Virus record (IMG/VR): IMGVR_UViG_3300034062_004841 | Coordinates: 1 to 22,081 of that record | Strand: one strand, 5' to 3' | DNA: 22,081 nt | Origin: a virus | Shown here: positions 3,681-7,518 of the stretch, one piece after another | Layout of the letters: each line of letters opens with the position of its first letter | Numbering within the stretch: the first letter of the stretch is position 1 | Made by a program: the position numbers and the translations under genes | The notes under the pieces: model-generated | The model's input: the letters and a program-made list of their open reading frames with translations, nothing else | Told to the model about the DNA's origin: nothing | Database searches by the model: none

Positions 3681-4268
3681 GTGACTAGACGCCTTGTACG
3701 CAATGGCACTACCGGACGCAACCCGGTTGGCAACGAGTTGATATTTACCGACTCGGATATTCGGATCGTTCTTTCGTCGGGAGCAGTCGCGGTTATAGAC
3801 GCCGATATGGCGCACCTTACAGAACGCCGCTGGTACGAAAAACGCTGCCTTCACGGCAACTGCTATGCGATGAGTAACGGCGCTTATGTTAACGGCGTAA
3901 GGGAGCCGCCCCTGTGGCTTCACCATGCAATCATCGGAAAACCAGAGGGGAGGGCGGTGGTCGATCATATCGACGGAGACGGACTAAACTGCACGCGCGT
4001 CAATCTTCGCGTCGTCTCCAATATGGAGAACACGCGCAATCGCGGCGCTAATGCACAGAAAAACAACAGTTCTTCTCAGTTTCTAGGTGTTCGTAGGCGG
4101 AAGGATCGCTACACCGCGCACATAAAAATTCACGGTTCGGTTTTATGGCTTGGGTCGTACCCAACCGAAGACGAAGCAAACGTCGCTCGCCTCAAAAAAG
4201 AACAAGAGCTTTGGGGTATCACCCCGCGCAGAGCTGATGCTTTTCGGAGGGCGGGATGGGCGCTGTAG
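3681..4268 (+). CDS. HNH homing endonuclease with C-terminal AP2 domain
   Basis: This 195-residue protein has the HNH_3-type architecture. A beta-rich N-terminus is followed by LHHAIIG (His81/His82), then VDHIDGDGLNCTRVNLR (residues 94-110; Asp95-His96 catalytic core, Asn108) and NMENTRNR. A C-terminal AP2-like DNA-binding domain is visible at about 134-172 (FLGVRRRKDRYTAHIKIHG, GSYPTEDEA). HNH-AP2 proteins are free-standing homing endonucleases that spread by cutting unoccupied alleles. The gene starts at GTG 3681 behind AGGAGGG and lies just after a strong terminator. Its last 13 bases overlap the next gene, as if inserted between the methyltransferase and the replication gene. AAA/ACG-rich stretches and lower GC than its neighbours fit an imported element. 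Confidence 0.9.
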   Translation: MTRRLVRNGTTGRNPVGNELIFTDSDIRIVLSSGAVAVIDADMAHLTERRWYEKRCLHGNCYAMSNGAYVNGVREPPLWLHHAIIGKPEGRAVVDHIDGDGLNCTRVNLRVVSNMENTRNRGANAQKNNSSSQFLGVRRRKDRYTAHIKIHGSVLWLGSYPTEDEANVARLKKEQELWGITPRRADAFRRAGWAL

Positions 4269-4750
4269 TTATCGCTTTTCCAGAACCACCGCTCAAATCC
4301 GAGGAAAACACTTTCGTTGAGGCGTGGGCTTTGCGCGCTGGCCAGATGCGTAAGCGCGGAGACGGTCAGGACAAAACCCGTAAGCTATGGAACCGCCATG
4401 CCGCTAAAGTCGGTCAGGAGCGGCTTCTAGAGGCTTTGCGGGGCTATCTGAGGGAGAAGGAACCGACGTGCGGTTTCTGCGGCCTGAGCGTTTGGCTAAA
4501 CGGCGAGAAATACGACCATTGGCTTCCGTCTGCGGAGGCGGTGGCGAAGATCGAGCGCCCGCCATATCCGCAACGCCCGGCGCTGATAGCGGCCCTCGGT
4601 GAGCCGTTTGTGGTCAGCTATATCGACCCTGCAACAATACACCCGGACGGCTGGATTACGCCAGCGACTGAATACGCGAAAGGCAAGCTGCGAGAGCGTG
4701 GCCGTGATTTGAAAGCGGCAGGGCTTGTCGGAATACGCGCGAAGGAGTAG
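4256..4750 (+). CDS. Hypothetical protein resembling the C-terminal part of phage replication/helicase-loader proteins
   Basis: This 164-residue protein begins MGAVVIAFPEPPLKSEENTF. Residues 20-85 follow a pattern common at the C-terminus of phage replication organisers and helicase loaders: a helix with regular basic residues (LWNRHAAKVGQERLLEALRG), then LREKEP and SVWLNGEKYDHWL, like the WLNGERW signature. A CxxC (CGFC) sits in the middle. The C-terminus is helical and charged. I infer a replication-accessory role from this similarity and from its place at the end of the DNA-metabolism operon. The start at 4256 overlaps the homing endonuclease gene by 13 bases, and the ribosome binding site (GGAGGG) lies inside that gene, so the intruder kept or rebuilt its expression signals. 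Confidence 0.65.
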   Translation: MGAVVIAFPEPPLKSEENTFVEAWALRAGQMRKRGDGQDKTRKLWNRHAAKVGQERLLEALRGYLREKEPTCGFCGLSVWLNGEKYDHWLPSAEAVAKIERPPYPQRPALIAALGEPFVVSYIDPATIHPDGWITPATEYAKGKLRERGRDLKAAGLVGIRAKE

Positions 4751-4836
4751 GGTTTCTATACGAGCGGCCTGCTGGATTCCGGCGGGATGTTGCAACTCGT
4801 TCGTATTGTGGCTCAACAAATCAAATGGCCCATGAC

Positions 4837-4865
4837 GCCCGATCAGCCTAGCGCCGGTCGGGCTT
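4837..4865 (+). repeat. 29-nt hairpin repeat, copy A
   Basis: Copy A is the terminator hairpin, with GCCCGATCAGCCTA at its left and CGGGCTT at its right end. It matches copy B (4939-4967) at 21 of 29 positions without gaps, and the two copies are exactly 102 bases apart, on either side of the tRNA relic. Confidence 0.55.
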
Positions 4866-4868
4866 TTT
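4837..4868 (+). terminator. Rho-independent terminator ending the early operon
   Basis: GCCCGATC (4837-4844) pairs with GGTCGGGC (4856-4863), 8 bp including one G-T pair, with an 11-base loop and then TTTTT (4864-4868). It lies 86 bases after the stop of the replication-like gene and should end the first rightward transcript. A diverged copy of the same hairpin is at 4939-4967. Confidence 0.8.
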
Positions 4869-4872
4869 GCTG

Positions 4873-4936
4873 TGCGACGACGGGACTCGAACCCGCAACC
4901 CCTTTTTACCGGCTCTACCAATTGAGTTACGCCGCA
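4873..4936 (-). pseudogene. tRNA relic lacking most of its anticodon arm
   Basis: Read on the minus strand, this 64-base element has: acceptor stem TGCGGCG (4936-4930) pairing with CGTCGCA (4879-4873) in 7 bp with one G-T; T8 and A9; a D-arm ACTC-AATTGGTA-GAGC with the conserved GG; and a perfect T-arm, GCGGG-TTCGAGT-CCCGT (4896-4880). Only 15 bases (4911-4897) lie between the D-arm and T-arm, where about 22 are needed, and they cannot form a 5-bp anticodon stem. No CCA is encoded. A normal elongator tRNA is therefore unlikely. It could be a decayed phage tRNA, a remnant of recombination with a host tRNA gene, or a tRNA mimic acting as substrate for processing enzymes. Confidence 0.7.
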
Positions 4937-4938
4937 CA

Positions 4939-4967
4939 GCCCGATCAACCTAAATCTAAGCGGGCTT
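4939..4967 (+). repeat. 29-nt hairpin repeat, copy B
   Basis: Copy B begins GCCCGATCAACCTA and ends CGGGCTT. AGCCCG (4938-4943) pairs with CGGGCT (4961-4966). The ends are conserved with copy A (4837-4865), while the loop has diverged to an A/T-rich sequence. It has no T tract and is probably not a working terminator on the plus strand. Confidence 0.5.
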
Positions 4968-5161
4968 GACGGCAACGATTTTCTGGCGCTTATTAAGGGC
5001 GAAGGGACGGAGCCGCCAAAGCCCCGTCCCCTCTGAATCCGTGTTCGCACCACGGAGAGCCAAGCTCTTACGCAATGTAGGACAAAGGCGCTCCCAAAGC
5101 AAATACGGGTTTTAGGCCCTTATGCTGCTACGGCAGCCGCACGTCGGGAGGAACCCGAAAC

Positions 5162-5243
5162 GCGAGGCCAGAAGCCTACCAAATGAGGGGGGAGAACCCC
5201 ACAAGGCCGCTCGGTGATTTGTGCCGCTGAGTGATGGCCTCGC
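5162..5243. other. 82-base domain closed by a perfect 8-bp stem (possible structured RNA)
   Basis: GCGAGGCC (5162-5169) and GGCCTCGC (5236-5243) are perfectly complementary. Inside are GGGG-AGAA-CCCC (5189-5200) and an imperfect CTCGG/CCGCTGAG arm. The length is tRNA-like but there is no T-arm or D-arm signature on either strand. Function unknown. Confidence 0.35.
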
Positions 5244-5361
5244 CGTTGCGAGAGATTGGCTTACAAAGTGGTGGAAGCGTAACCAGCCCGCCTGTTCGTC
5301 AGGCAAGCCGCACAAATATGTTTGAAAACGCGTCGAGACTTCAAGGAATCGAGAGGTTTTT

Positions 5362-5395
5362 AGCATGGTCTGCTCTTTGCAGGGCAGATTATGCT
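5362..5395 (+). promoter_or_regulatory. 12-bp hairpin in the leader of the zinc-ribbon gene
   Basis: AGCATGGTCTGC (5362-5373) pairs with GCAGATTATGCT (5384-5395), with two G-T pairs in the middle and a 10-base loop. GAGAG (5351-5355) and CTCTC (5396-5400) extend it across a T-rich bulge. The top can also form CTGC-TCTTT-GCAG, so two folds compete. It ends 41 bases before the ATG at 5437 and could control its translation or mRNA stability. Confidence 0.4.
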
Positions 5396-5436
5396 CTCTC
5401 CACATCAGGTGCTTAAGGAATAGGGAGTTAGGTAGG

Positions 5437-5706
5437 ATGCTAAGGTGCGAAGAATGCAAAGAGCCTAGAAGCAAATGGAGCGCGAGGCTTTGCCGGAGTT
5501 GCTACTTAGGAGTTGGGCTTACCGGGACAGAGAAAGAGGCAACCCAAAAATGGCTTCGCTCCGATCAAATCCCGATTGATGAGCCTACGAAAGAATATTT
5601 TGTCGCGGAGGCTGAAAAACGCGGCCTGACATTCACCGAGATATTATCGGCTCTTTTGCTAACCATAGCCGATGACAAAATGGCCGCTGCGATTTTGGAC
5701 GACTAG
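5437..5706 (+). CDS. Small zinc-ribbon protein with RHH-like C-terminus
   Basis: This 89-residue protein starts at ATG 5437 (GGGAG about 11 bases upstream, with a closer TAGG). Four cysteines (C4, C7, C19, C22) form a CxxC-x11-CxxC zinc ribbon. The second half, IPIDEPTKEYF followed by AEAEKRGLTFTEILSALLLT, has the strand-helix-turn-helix pattern of ribbon-helix-helix or related small DNA-binding proteins. Both features suggest a nucleic-acid-binding regulator. An upstream in-frame ATG at 5365 lies inside the leader hairpin and would add 24 unsupported residues. It is the first gene after the structured non-coding region and starts the second rightward group of small genes. Confidence 0.65.
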   Translation: MLRCEECKEPRSKWSARLCRSCYLGVGLTGTEKEATQKWLRSDQIPIDEPTKEYFVAEAEKRGLTFTEILSALLLTIADDKMAAAILDD

Positions 5707-5784
5707 CAACATCACAACGCAAACAGCTTTTGAGGAGCTTGGCCATCACCTAACCCCAATGTTTTTTAAGGGGAGGGTGGAGAC

Positions 5785-6057
5785 TTGAAAATAATGGTTG
5801 ACCACGGACGCGGAGGGTGTAGGTTGACCATACCAACAAGGGAGATGGTCATGGGCCTGAAACGCTTTTCCGCAGACATCAAGTTTTTGACCGACAGCGG
5901 TTATTCGTCGGAAACTAAGTTCCGCAACGTGCGCGGCGAGACTGGCGAGGAAGTCCTTTTGGACGCTGCCCGCGAGATTCACACTATTGCCGCGCGGTCT
6001 GGCGATGCGGCCTTGATGGCCCAGCTTGCTGAGATTTTTGCCGAGCAAACGCTTTGA
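5785..6057 (+). CDS. Hypothetical phage protein (probable TTG start)
   Basis: The frame from TTG 5785 gives 90 residues (MKIMVDHGRGGCRLTIPTRE, then MGLKRFSADIKFLTDSGYSS and a helical C-terminus). I prefer this start because the leader TTTTAAGGGGAG, then GAGACTTGA, matches the leader of the TTG-started DnaA-like gene (1913-1931). ATG 5851, six bases after AAGGGAG, is a good alternative giving 68 residues. If that is right, 5785-5850 is leader and contains two GGTTGACCA repeats. The protein has no recognised domain. Its stop overlaps the next start (TTGA at 6054-6057). Confidence 0.6.
   Translation: MKIMVDHGRGGCRLTIPTREMVMGLKRFSADIKFLTDSGYSSETKFRNVRGETGEEVLLDAAREIHTIAARSGDAALMAQLAEIFAEQTL
5796..5830. 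promoter_or_regulatory. Two direct copies of GGTTGACCA (operator candidate)
   Basis: GGTTGACCA occurs at 5796-5804 and 5822-5830, 26 bases apart. The core TGGTTGACCA of the first copy is itself a near-perfect palindrome (TGGT-TG-ACCA). The spacing of about two and a half helical turns would put two bound proteins on opposite faces of the DNA, so cooperative binding is uncertain. The sites also lie within a possible coding sequence. Confidence 0.3.
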
Positions 6058-6218
6058 ACAAACGACCACCAATCATCGCCGTGCGGCCCCGCAAAGGGTC
6101 TGTTTTGGAGGCCCAACAAAAGGCCCTTAACAACGACATGGCAGACATCATTCACTCGTGGGCCGAGACATTCTCGCTCATGACAAAAGCATCAGAACAA
6201 GAGGGAGAAGACCAATGA
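6054..6218 (+). CDS. Hypothetical small phage protein (TTG start)
   Basis: This 54-residue frame begins at TTG 6054 (MNKRPPIIAVRPRKGSVLEA) and ends at 6218. Both ends overlap neighbours (TTGA with the previous stop, ATGA with the next start), which is the best evidence that it is translated. It has a basic, proline-rich N-terminus and a helical acidic C-terminus (MADIIHSWAETFSLM). No family is recognised. It belongs to the chain of tiny genes from 5785 to 7594, whose size, overlap and lack of known domains resemble phage accessory (host-takeover or anti-defence) loci. Confidence 0.6.
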   Translation: MNKRPPIIAVRPRKGSVLEAQQKALNNDMADIIHSWAETFSLMTKASEQEGEDQ

Positions 6219-6412
6219 TTGACCGAGCAACACATACCGATCACCGCCGCCACGCCGCGATGATGACCGATCATGGTTCATCGCGTGGCTGGGACTTCCG
6301 CCCCTCCGACGAGCCTCCGATGTGGCTTCGCGCCGTGGCCGAGGTGCTGCGTCCGCGCAGTCTCATCATCTTGGCTGCAATGGCCGGGGTTATAGCGTTG
6401 TGGTGGTTCTGA
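6215..6412 (+). CDS. Small protein with one C-terminal membrane segment
   Basis: This 65-residue protein starts at ATG 6215, supported by GAGGGAG just upstream and by the ATGA overlap. An upstream in-frame ATG at 6158 lies inside the previous gene and is unlikely. The N-terminal 45 residues are polar and rich in His and Arg (HTDHRRHAAMMTDH). Residues 49-65 (SLIILAAMAGVIALWWF) form a single membrane segment that ends at the last residue, as in tail-anchored proteins. The function is unknown; a small tail-anchored phage protein could act on the host inner membrane. The stop overlaps the next start by one base (TGATG). Confidence 0.6.
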   Translation: MIDRATHTDHRRHAAMMTDHGSSRGWDFRPSDEPPMWLRAVAEVLRPRSLIILAAMAGVIALWWF

Positions 6413-6738
6413 TGGGGGCGCACACGAAAGGGCCTTGGGAGTTCGGTCCGGGCTACGAGCCGGGCGACACCACGTTTGATCTGTTCGCTCCCGGCGGCAA
6501 GCAAGTCATCGCACGGGCCAGCTACGAGAATATGTGGTTGTCCGCCTATGACGCCGCGACCGATGCCGCGAATGCCCGCCTTATCGCCTCCGCTCCTGAT
6601 CTTTTGGAGGCTCTGCGCCAAACAACGGCACAGATTTCCGTCTGGCGCTCGATCAACGGCGACATGGTTGGCGCGCTTGCTGACCTTGAAAACAACGCCC
6701 GCGCCGCTATCCGAAAAGCCACAGGAGAAGCATCATGA
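6412..6738 (+). CDS. Hypothetical phage protein with ANARLIASAPDLLEAL motif
   Basis: This 108-residue protein starts at ATG 6412 (TGATG with the previous gene). The N-terminus has the TKGPWEF...GP pattern, and residues about 47-62 have ANARLIASAPDLLEAL, a pairing I recognise from many short uncharacterised proteins of temperate and lytic phages. The C-terminal helix ends NARAAIRKATGE, also typical of the group. No biochemical function is established for it to my knowledge. It is coupled to the next gene by an ATGA overlap (6735-6738). Family membership is likely; a role is not known. Confidence 0.7.
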   Translation: MGAHTKGPWEFGPGYEPGDTTFDLFAPGGKQVIARASYENMWLSAYDAATDAANARLIASAPDLLEALRQTTAQISVWRSINGDMVGALADLENNARAAIRKATGEAS

Positions 6739-7073
6739 CCCCCGACGAACTCCCCGCTGATATGGAGGGGCGGCTGGCTGGAGACCTAGCCGCACGAACT
6801 AAAGCGGGGCTTTCGACCGTAGTGGTGTCTATTCCCGACCTCCGCGCCCTCCTGAAAGCATGCCAAGAGCAGCGCCGGGCTTTGGAGCTTGCGCTGGACT
6901 ACCTTGTCGAAATGGAGCCGGGCGACAGCCGGGCTATCTCGAATGAATTCGTCGCCATGTTGGGTGTGTTTCTCGGCGTTGAACCCAACACCCCCGGCGA
7001 AGATATGGCGATCATCGAAAAGGCTCTTGAAGCTCGACGCGCCCGAGCCGCCCTTACAGGAGAAGACGTATGA
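6735..7073 (+). CDS. Hypothetical helical phage protein
   Basis: This 112-residue protein begins MTPDELPADMEGRLAGDLAA. It is mostly helical with a central segment LRALLKACQEQRRALELALD and an acidic C-terminal half. It has no membrane segment or metal site. Start and stop both overlap neighbours by four bases (ATGA), and AGGAGA lies just upstream of each start, so the frame is well supported. I recognise no family. It is part of the tiny-gene chain and presumably co-expressed with it. Confidence 0.65.
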   Translation: MTPDELPADMEGRLAGDLAARTKAGLSTVVVSIPDLRALLKACQEQRRALELALDYLVEMEPGDSRAISNEFVAMLGVFLGVEPNTPGEDMAIIEKALEARRARAALTGEDV

Positions 7074-7324
7074 GCAAAGATCGAGGCTTTGAACTGTTTA
7101 TCGGCGGCTGCATGGACGGCCATCGAAAACGTATCCCGCACGGCCACAGAGCGACATTCTCGCACATTGAAGACGGTCAGCCGGTGGAACGCGTCGCGTA
7201 TCGGCGGGAGCGTTTCAGCACCGGACCGGACACAAGCGTTTTTCTCTGGCTTGAAGTCGGCATGACTCCTCACGAAGCGGTGGCCGCGCTAGTGCAACGA
7301 TACCCGCAAGGAGAAGACACATGA
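7070..7324 (+). CDS. Hypothetical small phage protein
   Basis: This 84-residue protein begins MSKDRGFELFIGGCMDGHRK. The first half is beta-like and rich in His, Arg and Gly; a YRRERFS segment follows in the middle; and the C-terminus is a short helix (GMTPHEAVAALVQRY). The pattern of a GG...DG turn followed by a TFSHIEDG strand suggests a small compact alpha-beta fold, but I cannot name it. The ATGA overlap with the upstream gene and an AGGAGAAGAC ribosome site support the start at 7070. It is coupled to the next gene at 7321. Confidence 0.65.
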   Translation: MSKDRGFELFIGGCMDGHRKRIPHGHRATFSHIEDGQPVERVAYRRERFSTGPDTSVFLWLEVGMTPHEAVAALVQRYPQGEDT

Positions 7325-7518
7325 CAGCGCCCGGCGAGGTCACCACCCCGCTTCTCGTCCTCGAACAAGGCGAGACCTACACCGTTGACGAAGACGGGGC
7401 AGTAGTCATTACGGGAGAGCATACCCACTCTGACATTCTGCGATACGTCGTGTCCGATATAGGGAGTGATGCAAGGTCGCTTCTAGAGGATATTCTTACA
7501 GGAGAAAACCATGACTGA
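7321..7518 (+). CDS. Hypothetical acidic small protein
   Basis: This 65-residue acidic protein begins MTAPGEVTTPLLVLEQGETY, with alternating beta-like segments (YTVDEDGAVVITGEH) followed by a helix (DARSLLEDILTGE). It overlaps the previous gene by four bases and the next start by eight (7511-7518). No family is recognised. Its strong negative charge and small size would allow a DNA-mimic or inhibitor role, but this is speculation from composition. Confidence 0.6.
   Translation: MTAPGEVTTPLLVLEQGETYTVDEDGAVVITGEHTHSDILRYVVSDIGSDARSLLEDILTGENHD

Follow-up and report, generated by a model that had tools for sequence, protein, structure and literature searches.

A putative phage gene for a structured RNA of about 430 bases with exchangeable 3′ modules

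Introduction

Positions 4751-5436 of the virus record IMGVR_UViG_3300034062_004841 from IMG/VR (22,081 bases, analysed at full length and called the window here) very probably encode a folded RNA, about 430 bases long, whose gene has a start signal of its own. Comparison of related loci shows that the place, the promoter-like sequence and the paired structure of this RNA are conserved and that its modules have been exchanged. We read it, with a probability of about 55%, as an autonomous phage gene for a trans-acting, recombining structured RNA that would be comparable to ROOL and GOLLD without matching either of them. An initial annotation of the same DNA had named a structured non-coding RNA, a replication origin or a packaging signal as candidates. 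The first of these is now well supported by conservation, by base pairs changed on both sides, by a promoter of its own and by the lack of a coding pattern.

In the available text of PMC12286853, ROOL is described as a large structured RNA of phages and prophages that often lies by tRNA islands, with an example of 659 nt. GOLLD is described there as a large phage RNA, also often by tRNA islands, with more and less conserved parts; many of its members exceed 800 nt and its 3′ region is universally conserved. For neither RNA does that text give an established function.

Results

Layout of the stretch

Genes in the left part of the window run mostly rightward, and from about 7.8 kb leftward, as read from the list of open reading frames (ORFs). 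Stretch 4751-5436 is a composite and not a single unit (Table 1): its first 245 bases carry a terminator, a tRNA-like element on the minus strand and a promoter, and the RNA follows, its start being placed from the −10 box and its end from the limit of similarity to two relatives, L008 and L013. The initial annotation took these bases for an empty region packed with hairpins; a terminator and a tRNA-like element now have to be counted there besides the RNA. The 12-bp leader hairpin that it described is present in the fold (about 4758-4806) but sits before the terminator, and among 12 relatives only L005 gave a blastn match that crosses it.

The upstream gene had no match in PHROG or Pfam, and a tblastn search of phage records with it found none either. 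For the small ORF downstream, no relative was found in the viral contigs searched, and its slot is occupied by different genes in the relatives. This cargo slot right after the RNA is hypervariable, holding a GIY-YIG gene in L002, an HNH gene in L005, a YspA-like SLOG gene in L012 and small ORFs in the window, L008 and L013. At 5706-5741 lies a short stretch ending in a ribosome-binding site (ACAACGCAAACAGCTT..GAGGAGCTT), which recurs in L002, L005, L008, L012 and L013 and precedes different small ORFs in several loci; such a stretch may be a linker for gene exchange. Further on, the sequence CACCTAACCCCAATGTTTTTTAAGGGGAGGGTG (5747-5779) is a conserved site, present once per record with at most one mismatch in seven of 16 records. 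Two HNH endonuclease genes also lie near the RNA locus, at 1561-1932 and 3681-4268.

Table 1. Features of the stretch and its immediate neighbours, in window coordinates
Feature	Position	Strand	Remarks
Upstream gene (gene A), 164 aa, function unassigned	4256-4750	+	left neighbour of the RNA
Spacer	4751-4836		
Intrinsic terminator	4837-4868	+	stem GCCCGATC..GGTCGGGC, then TTTTT; fold −17.2 kcal/mol, z −3.35
tRNA-like element	4936-4872	−	Rfam tRNA; D-arm, T-arm and acceptor stem present, normal anticodon arm lacking
Putative alphaproteobacterial RpoD-type promoter	4966-4995	+	TTGACGG (4966-4972) and GCTTATTA (4988-4995)
Structured non-coding RNA (very probable), about 430 bases	5001-5430	+	both ends inferred
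Hairpin I	5004-5030	+	GGGACGG..CCGTCCC; place constant, arms differ in most loci
Hairpin II	5038-5055	+	TCCGTG..CACGGA; helix 4 of the type A fold
Hairpin III	5057-5067	+	GAGC..GCTC, read by eye; other loci have, for example, TGCG..CGCA
Junction of exchangeable modules	5110-5119	+	TTTTAGGCCC; onset of identity to L013 and ends of blastn matches
3′ module, type A	5118-5421	+	near-identity to L013; 81.1% to L008
3′ multi-branch domain	5250-5400	+	closed by GAGAGA/TCTCTC (5250-5255 with 5395-5400); helices 14-21
14-bp terminal hairpin	5363-5394	+	helix 21; 13 of 14 pairs invariant, one changed on both sides
Downstream small ORF, 89 aa	5437-5706	+	CxxC pairs

Terminator, tRNA-like element and promoter

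The terminator, which would close the upstream operon, is 95-100% identical in L002, L003 and L010. A different hairpin followed by TTTT was read at its place in L004, L005, L008, L009, L012 and L013, and none was seen there in L006, L007 and L011.

The tRNA-like element reached 33.5 bits in an Rfam scan of the short stretch (gathering score 29, E 4.4e-5). Whole-window scans by Rfam at gathering scores, with fast filters, and by ARAGORN came back empty, this element included. The region of its anticodon arm has 10 nt versus 18 in the model, and its minimum-energy fold is a long hairpin and not a cloverleaf with an anticodon arm. The slot that it occupies has CTGTGCG and CGCACAG as its boundaries. 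A weaker element (3664-3603 of L005; 25.5 bits, below gathering) has T- and D-arms and a degenerate anticodon arm; both elements lie in such a slot on the strand opposite to the RNA, and the slot holds other inserts in L012 and L013. Rfam hits of the window element to Deinococcus Y RNA and mascRNA scored far under gathering and were discarded.

The putative promoter comes close to the Caulobacter RpoD consensus TTGaCgS / GCtANAWC as given in the available text of PMC8144410. Ahead of the RNA, a TTGAC[GC] box stands in all 13 loci (the window and 12 relatives), overlapping the end of the upstream gene in L006, L007 and L011; another box of this kind lies elsewhere in L002, L004 and L006. The box is followed in many loci by GCTTATTA or GCTAAGGT, and the two elements together resemble the same consensus. 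A simple scan for promoters (strict E. coli-type) and terminators flagged neither the promoter at 4966-4995 nor the terminator at 4837-4868.

Related loci and types of 3′ module

Twelve relatives were found in IMG/VR via the upstream gene (63-91% protein identity), a count limited to phages carrying that gene. Read singly, all 12 show an analogous promoter box and then a hairpin-rich stretch after this gene. Further searches with other queries returned mostly the same contigs, the only new ones being L029, L032 and L042; the motif match of L042 lies antisense to a long ORF and was taken as chance. A scan of genome contigs with a 19-base motif of one type of the RNA (type C, below) gave two matches, L039 and L040, and the second of these, which has no further match to the RNA beyond the motif, was also taken as chance.

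The 3′ modules fall into at least five types: A in the window, L008 and L013; B in L002, L004, L010 and L012; C in L003, L006, L007, L009, L029, L032 and L041; D in L005; and E in L011, with 42-57 nt in common with C. Against phage records, blastn found no match for window positions 4251-5800, for type B or for type D; for type C the only match was Caulobacter phage DMCA (L041), and a comparison of type C with plasmids found none.

A 5′ domain joined to unlike 3′ modules

The RNA appears from these comparisons to be built of two modules, a 5′ domain with at least three hairpins and a 3′ module. In all 14 box-bearing loci (the window, L002-L013 and L029), the distance from the start of TTGAC to the first base of the 5′ arm of hairpin I is 32-38 nt; this count excludes L032 and L041, which are without TTGAC. 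The arms of hairpin I are the same as those of the window in L002 and L005, and the same as each other in L006 and L007. Taken locus by locus, hairpin I has z-scores from −1.16 to −4.21; the evidence for it is its repetition across loci and not any single locus.

The joint between the two modules can be placed by comparing the window with L013. The two are identical over 5112-5421 except for a single deleted base at 5357; elsewhere, the upstream gene is 67.7% identical and the 5′ domain of the RNA 55.2%. In an all-against-all blastn of 15 of the 16 stretches (L007 left out), no match across types A, B and D reaches further than 154 nt from the beginning of the box (about 5117-5119). Without L013 there are eight such cross-type matches, and five of them end at 151-154 nt. 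The others end at 141-145 nt (L005-L008) and at 92-95 nt (L008-L002 and L008-L010), and since these three stop early, the other pairs show the joint most clearly. From the opposite side, five matches inside one 3′ type between unlike 5′ domains begin at 145-150 nt. The 3′ modules A-E have no cross-type blastn match at E 0.01, except between C and E over 42-57 nt. Since the match ends cluster, and since the window and L013 are nearly identical in the 3′ module and diverged in the 5′ domain and the gene, the modules move independently of each other and of the flanking gene.

Conserved pairing

Pairs changed on both sides occur in the folds of three types. For type C (six sequences), 95.2% of cells are paired and 15 pairs are changed on both sides, where shuffles average 6.5 and slid controls give 0-4; this alignment was made without L007, which differs from L006 at two of 441 columns, and without L011, which departs after 42-57 nt. 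For type A (the window, L008 and L013, two of these rows being nearly identical in the 3′ module), nine pairs are changed on both sides, compared with a shuffled mean of 3.0 and 0-2 in slid controls. In both types the count exceeds every one of 500 shuffles. For type B (four sequences), 19 of 111 predicted pairs are changed on both sides in some sequence, a count made without a shuffle control and including a few pairs that fall in promoter columns. All these counts lean in favour of the folds, since the alignments that were counted had also served to derive the structures. The pairs changed on both sides support the folds of types A, B and C.

Among the single stems named in the initial annotation, the GCUGC-UACG-GCAGC hairpin is present on the plus strand at 5124-5137 (helix 7) and is unchanged in L008 and L013. 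The 82-base domain fared less well: its perfect 8-bp stem exists in the window (5162-5169 with 5236-5243), but L008, as read from the alignment, breaks two of the eight pairs. A competing helix (helix 12, 5204-5208 with 5236-5240) is found in all three type A sequences, and two of its pairs are changed on both sides.

Coding potential and folding strength

Five ORFs of at least 60 aa touch the stretch, and three of them were tested against L008. The other two (4787-4969 on the plus strand and 4496-5053 on the minus strand) lie mostly ahead of the RNA and outside this test. Between 4984 and 5436 there are 99 substitutions relative to L008, spread over the codon phases as 35/35/29, and each of the three ORFs contains a single-base indel. 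No coding pattern was found in these three, and the earlier statement that the region lacks a credible protein gene agrees with this comparison.

The 686 bases fold with z −2.95 on the plus strand and −2.60 on the minus strand, 0 of 20 shuffles being as good on each, and the RNA part alone (4995-5430) with z −3.53 and −3.22. In control windows of 430 bases from elsewhere in the same record, 28 per strand, mean z is −0.57 (minimum −2.74) on the plus strand and −0.47 (minimum −2.68) on the minus strand. Among the 15 loci scored (L007 left out), the relatives range widely on the plus strand, for example −4.99 in L010, −1.33 in L005, −0.3 in L032 and +0.8 in L041, and the RNAs of L005, L032 and L041 fold no better than shuffles. 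Because of such relatives, folding energy alone is weak evidence; the case is carried by conservation and covariation.

These same three relatives could be taken to mean that the region is a remnant, with decayed genes and tRNA fragments left between two operons and hairpins that arose by chance, and the degenerate tRNA-like element and the hypervariable cargo slot after the RNA would suit that picture. We consider it very improbable: the pairs changed on both sides lie above any of 500 shuffles, about 310 nearly identical bases are common to an otherwise diverged phage (L013), and the region is present in 12 of 12 relatives.

Strand, and a possible role of the DNA itself

Folding leaves the strand undecided. 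Consensus energy is lower on the plus strand for types A and B and on the minus strand for type C; in type A, pairs changed on both sides number 13 on the minus strand versus nine on the plus strand; and single-sequence z is lower on the minus strand in nine of 15 loci. The plus strand was chosen because the putative promoter points that way.

That both strands fold well would also be expected of an element acting as DNA, such as a replication origin or a packaging site, whose symmetry would give RNA-like hairpins, and the gene at 1929-2297 encodes a protein with a DNA-binding domain of the DnaA type. This protein, called DnaA-like at first, has the C-terminal helix-turn-helix domain of DnaA (PF08299), but with 122 aa it is too short for a whole DnaA. 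None of the 19 DnaA-box-like sites of the window (at most one mismatch) falls within 4751-5436, their number is at chance level (shuffle mean 22.7), and no cluster of DnaA boxes was found. Cumulative GC skew tracks gene strand only: it flattens not at the stretch but around 6-9 kb, with the turn in gene orientation. The origin once proposed here thus finds no backing in boxes or skew. Furthermore, the folds show one-sided changes to G-U pairs, and the genomic surroundings differ among phages; one RNA type appears to lie among late genes in one phage and early in another, which speaks against a packaging signal. A function at the DNA level is, on balance, improbable.

Type C in other genomic contexts

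Three further phages, L029, L032 and DMCA, carry type C among different neighbours, and in two of them it runs against the adjoining genes. In L029 the RNA lies between two opposite-strand ORFs and stops, at its 3′ side, within a few bases of the stop codon of one of them; the start of the ORF ahead of the RNA is our own choice. In L032 it precedes a same-strand ORF of 688 aa, read as a tail fibre or tail gene and assigned without a family search. DMCA (PQ480021) is an isolated phage that grows on Caulobacter vibrioides CB15; its type C RNA is at 36310-36591, a place to which the record assigns, on the opposite strand, two small hypothetical proteins and where the surrounding genes run leftward. 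No TTGAC box was found in L032 and DMCA. Directly after the DMCA RNA, a plus-strand ORF of 36 aa with a good ribosome-binding site (6327-6437 of L041) lies outside the feature table of the record.

These contexts bear on the main rival to an autonomous RNA gene, a cis-acting leader or antitermination element that would head the rightward operon 5437-7518 and whose nascent RNA would act on the polymerase or on downstream translation. This reading ranks first among the rivals since, in phages of the podovirus-like group, more plus-strand genes lie ahead of the RNA in its own direction. The RNA follows a terminator and a promoter, several of the genes ahead have ribosome-binding sites, no terminator was seen in between, and the place is the same in 12 of 12 relatives. 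However, the next gene varies (GIY-YIG, HNH, YspA-like or small ORFs) without tracking the type of RNA, the RNA of L029 aims at the end of an opposite-strand gene, and a length of about 430 nt with exchangeable modules is, in our judgement, unusual for a leader. We regard a leader as rather unlikely.

Comparison with known RNA families and with shared proteins

In Rfam 15, no ROOL, GOLLD, intron, guide-RNA or ribozyme family reaches threshold on the RNA of the window or of 15 relatives. The covariance models of ROOL and of GOLLD matched neither the window stretch nor the 15 relatives, with E cut-offs of 10 for the window stretch, 5 for eight relatives and 2 for the other seven. Hits of the RNA to sX14 (19.4 bits, minus strand) and MIR856 were far under the Rfam gathering scores and were rejected. 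A search of the literature, covering titles and abstract openings mostly outside subscription journals, found no description of this RNA.

The same scans weigh on another explanation, an RNA for nuclease-linked mobility or guiding, namely a ribozyme, an intron remnant or a guide RNA for the HNH and GIY-YIG enzymes encoded nearby. Genes for such enzymes do lie close in the window, L002, L003, L005 and L006, and the modules do exchange. Against this, none of the corresponding families reached threshold, group I and group II introns included; nuclease type and RNA type are not coupled; and the RNA of L029 sits between ORFs and splits no gene. An RNA serving these nucleases seems improbable to us.

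A protein comparison (ORFs of at least 60 aa, eight of the 16 records, E 1e-6) listed no protein from G013, G014 or DMCA with matches in all the other phages compared. This absence speaks for an RNA acting either by itself or together with a partner from the host.

Discussion

Taken as an autonomous gene for a structured RNA, the stretch can be set beside several known phage elements. Like ROOL, it would give a large structured phage RNA near a tRNA-like element, and like GOLLD an unevenly conserved one; the difference from ROOL as described in the available text of PMC12286853 (where the setting is tRNA islands) is its length of about 430 nt with two exchangeable modules, that from GOLLD is a 3′ part that varies in at least five types and so lacks the conserved 3′ region given for GOLLD there, and neither family matches in Rfam. 

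A phage moron has its own promoter, is inserted between genes of an operon and is absent from near relatives. The RNA of L029 resembles one in form, as far as its own promoter-like box and its place between two genes on the other strand go; unlike a moron, the gene would yield an RNA, and its place does not vary within the podovirus-like group. The HK022 put RNA and other antitermination leaders likewise have hairpins right after a phage promoter, but put RNA is much shorter than about 430 nt, and the types found here are not tied to the next gene. The phi29 pRNA, of about 174 nt and tied to the packaging motor, is likewise a structured phage RNA of varying sequence, and the present RNA has no match to it in Rfam.

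How such a gene might work can be outlined. The plus strand would be transcribed, independently of the neighbouring genes, by host RNA polymerase starting at the RpoD-type promoter. The 5′ domain would fold first and the 3′ multi-branch module after it; the 5′ domain may provide a shared grip by which the RNA is folded, stabilised or delivered, and the 3′ module would meet a target, probably an RNA, a protein or a defence component of the host. Phages would swap the 3′ module as a unit by recombination near 5110-5119. Because one joint carries unlike 3′ modules, it is suggested that the 3′ part meets variable targets. More tentatively, these phages might carry a new combinatorial class of RNA that acts without the help of any phage protein. 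Its 5′ domain would keep a fixed place and be linked, always at one junction, to one or another of several unrelated 3′ effector modules, which phages would trade among themselves as swappable heads while host targets or defences vary; this wider idea is possible but doubtful.

If the family is real, it is shorter than ROOL and GOLLD, has modules that can be swapped and has a member in the cultured phage DMCA, so that its function would be approachable genetically. Module exchange at one joint inside an RNA gene would then be a clear case of domain shuffling in a non-coding RNA.
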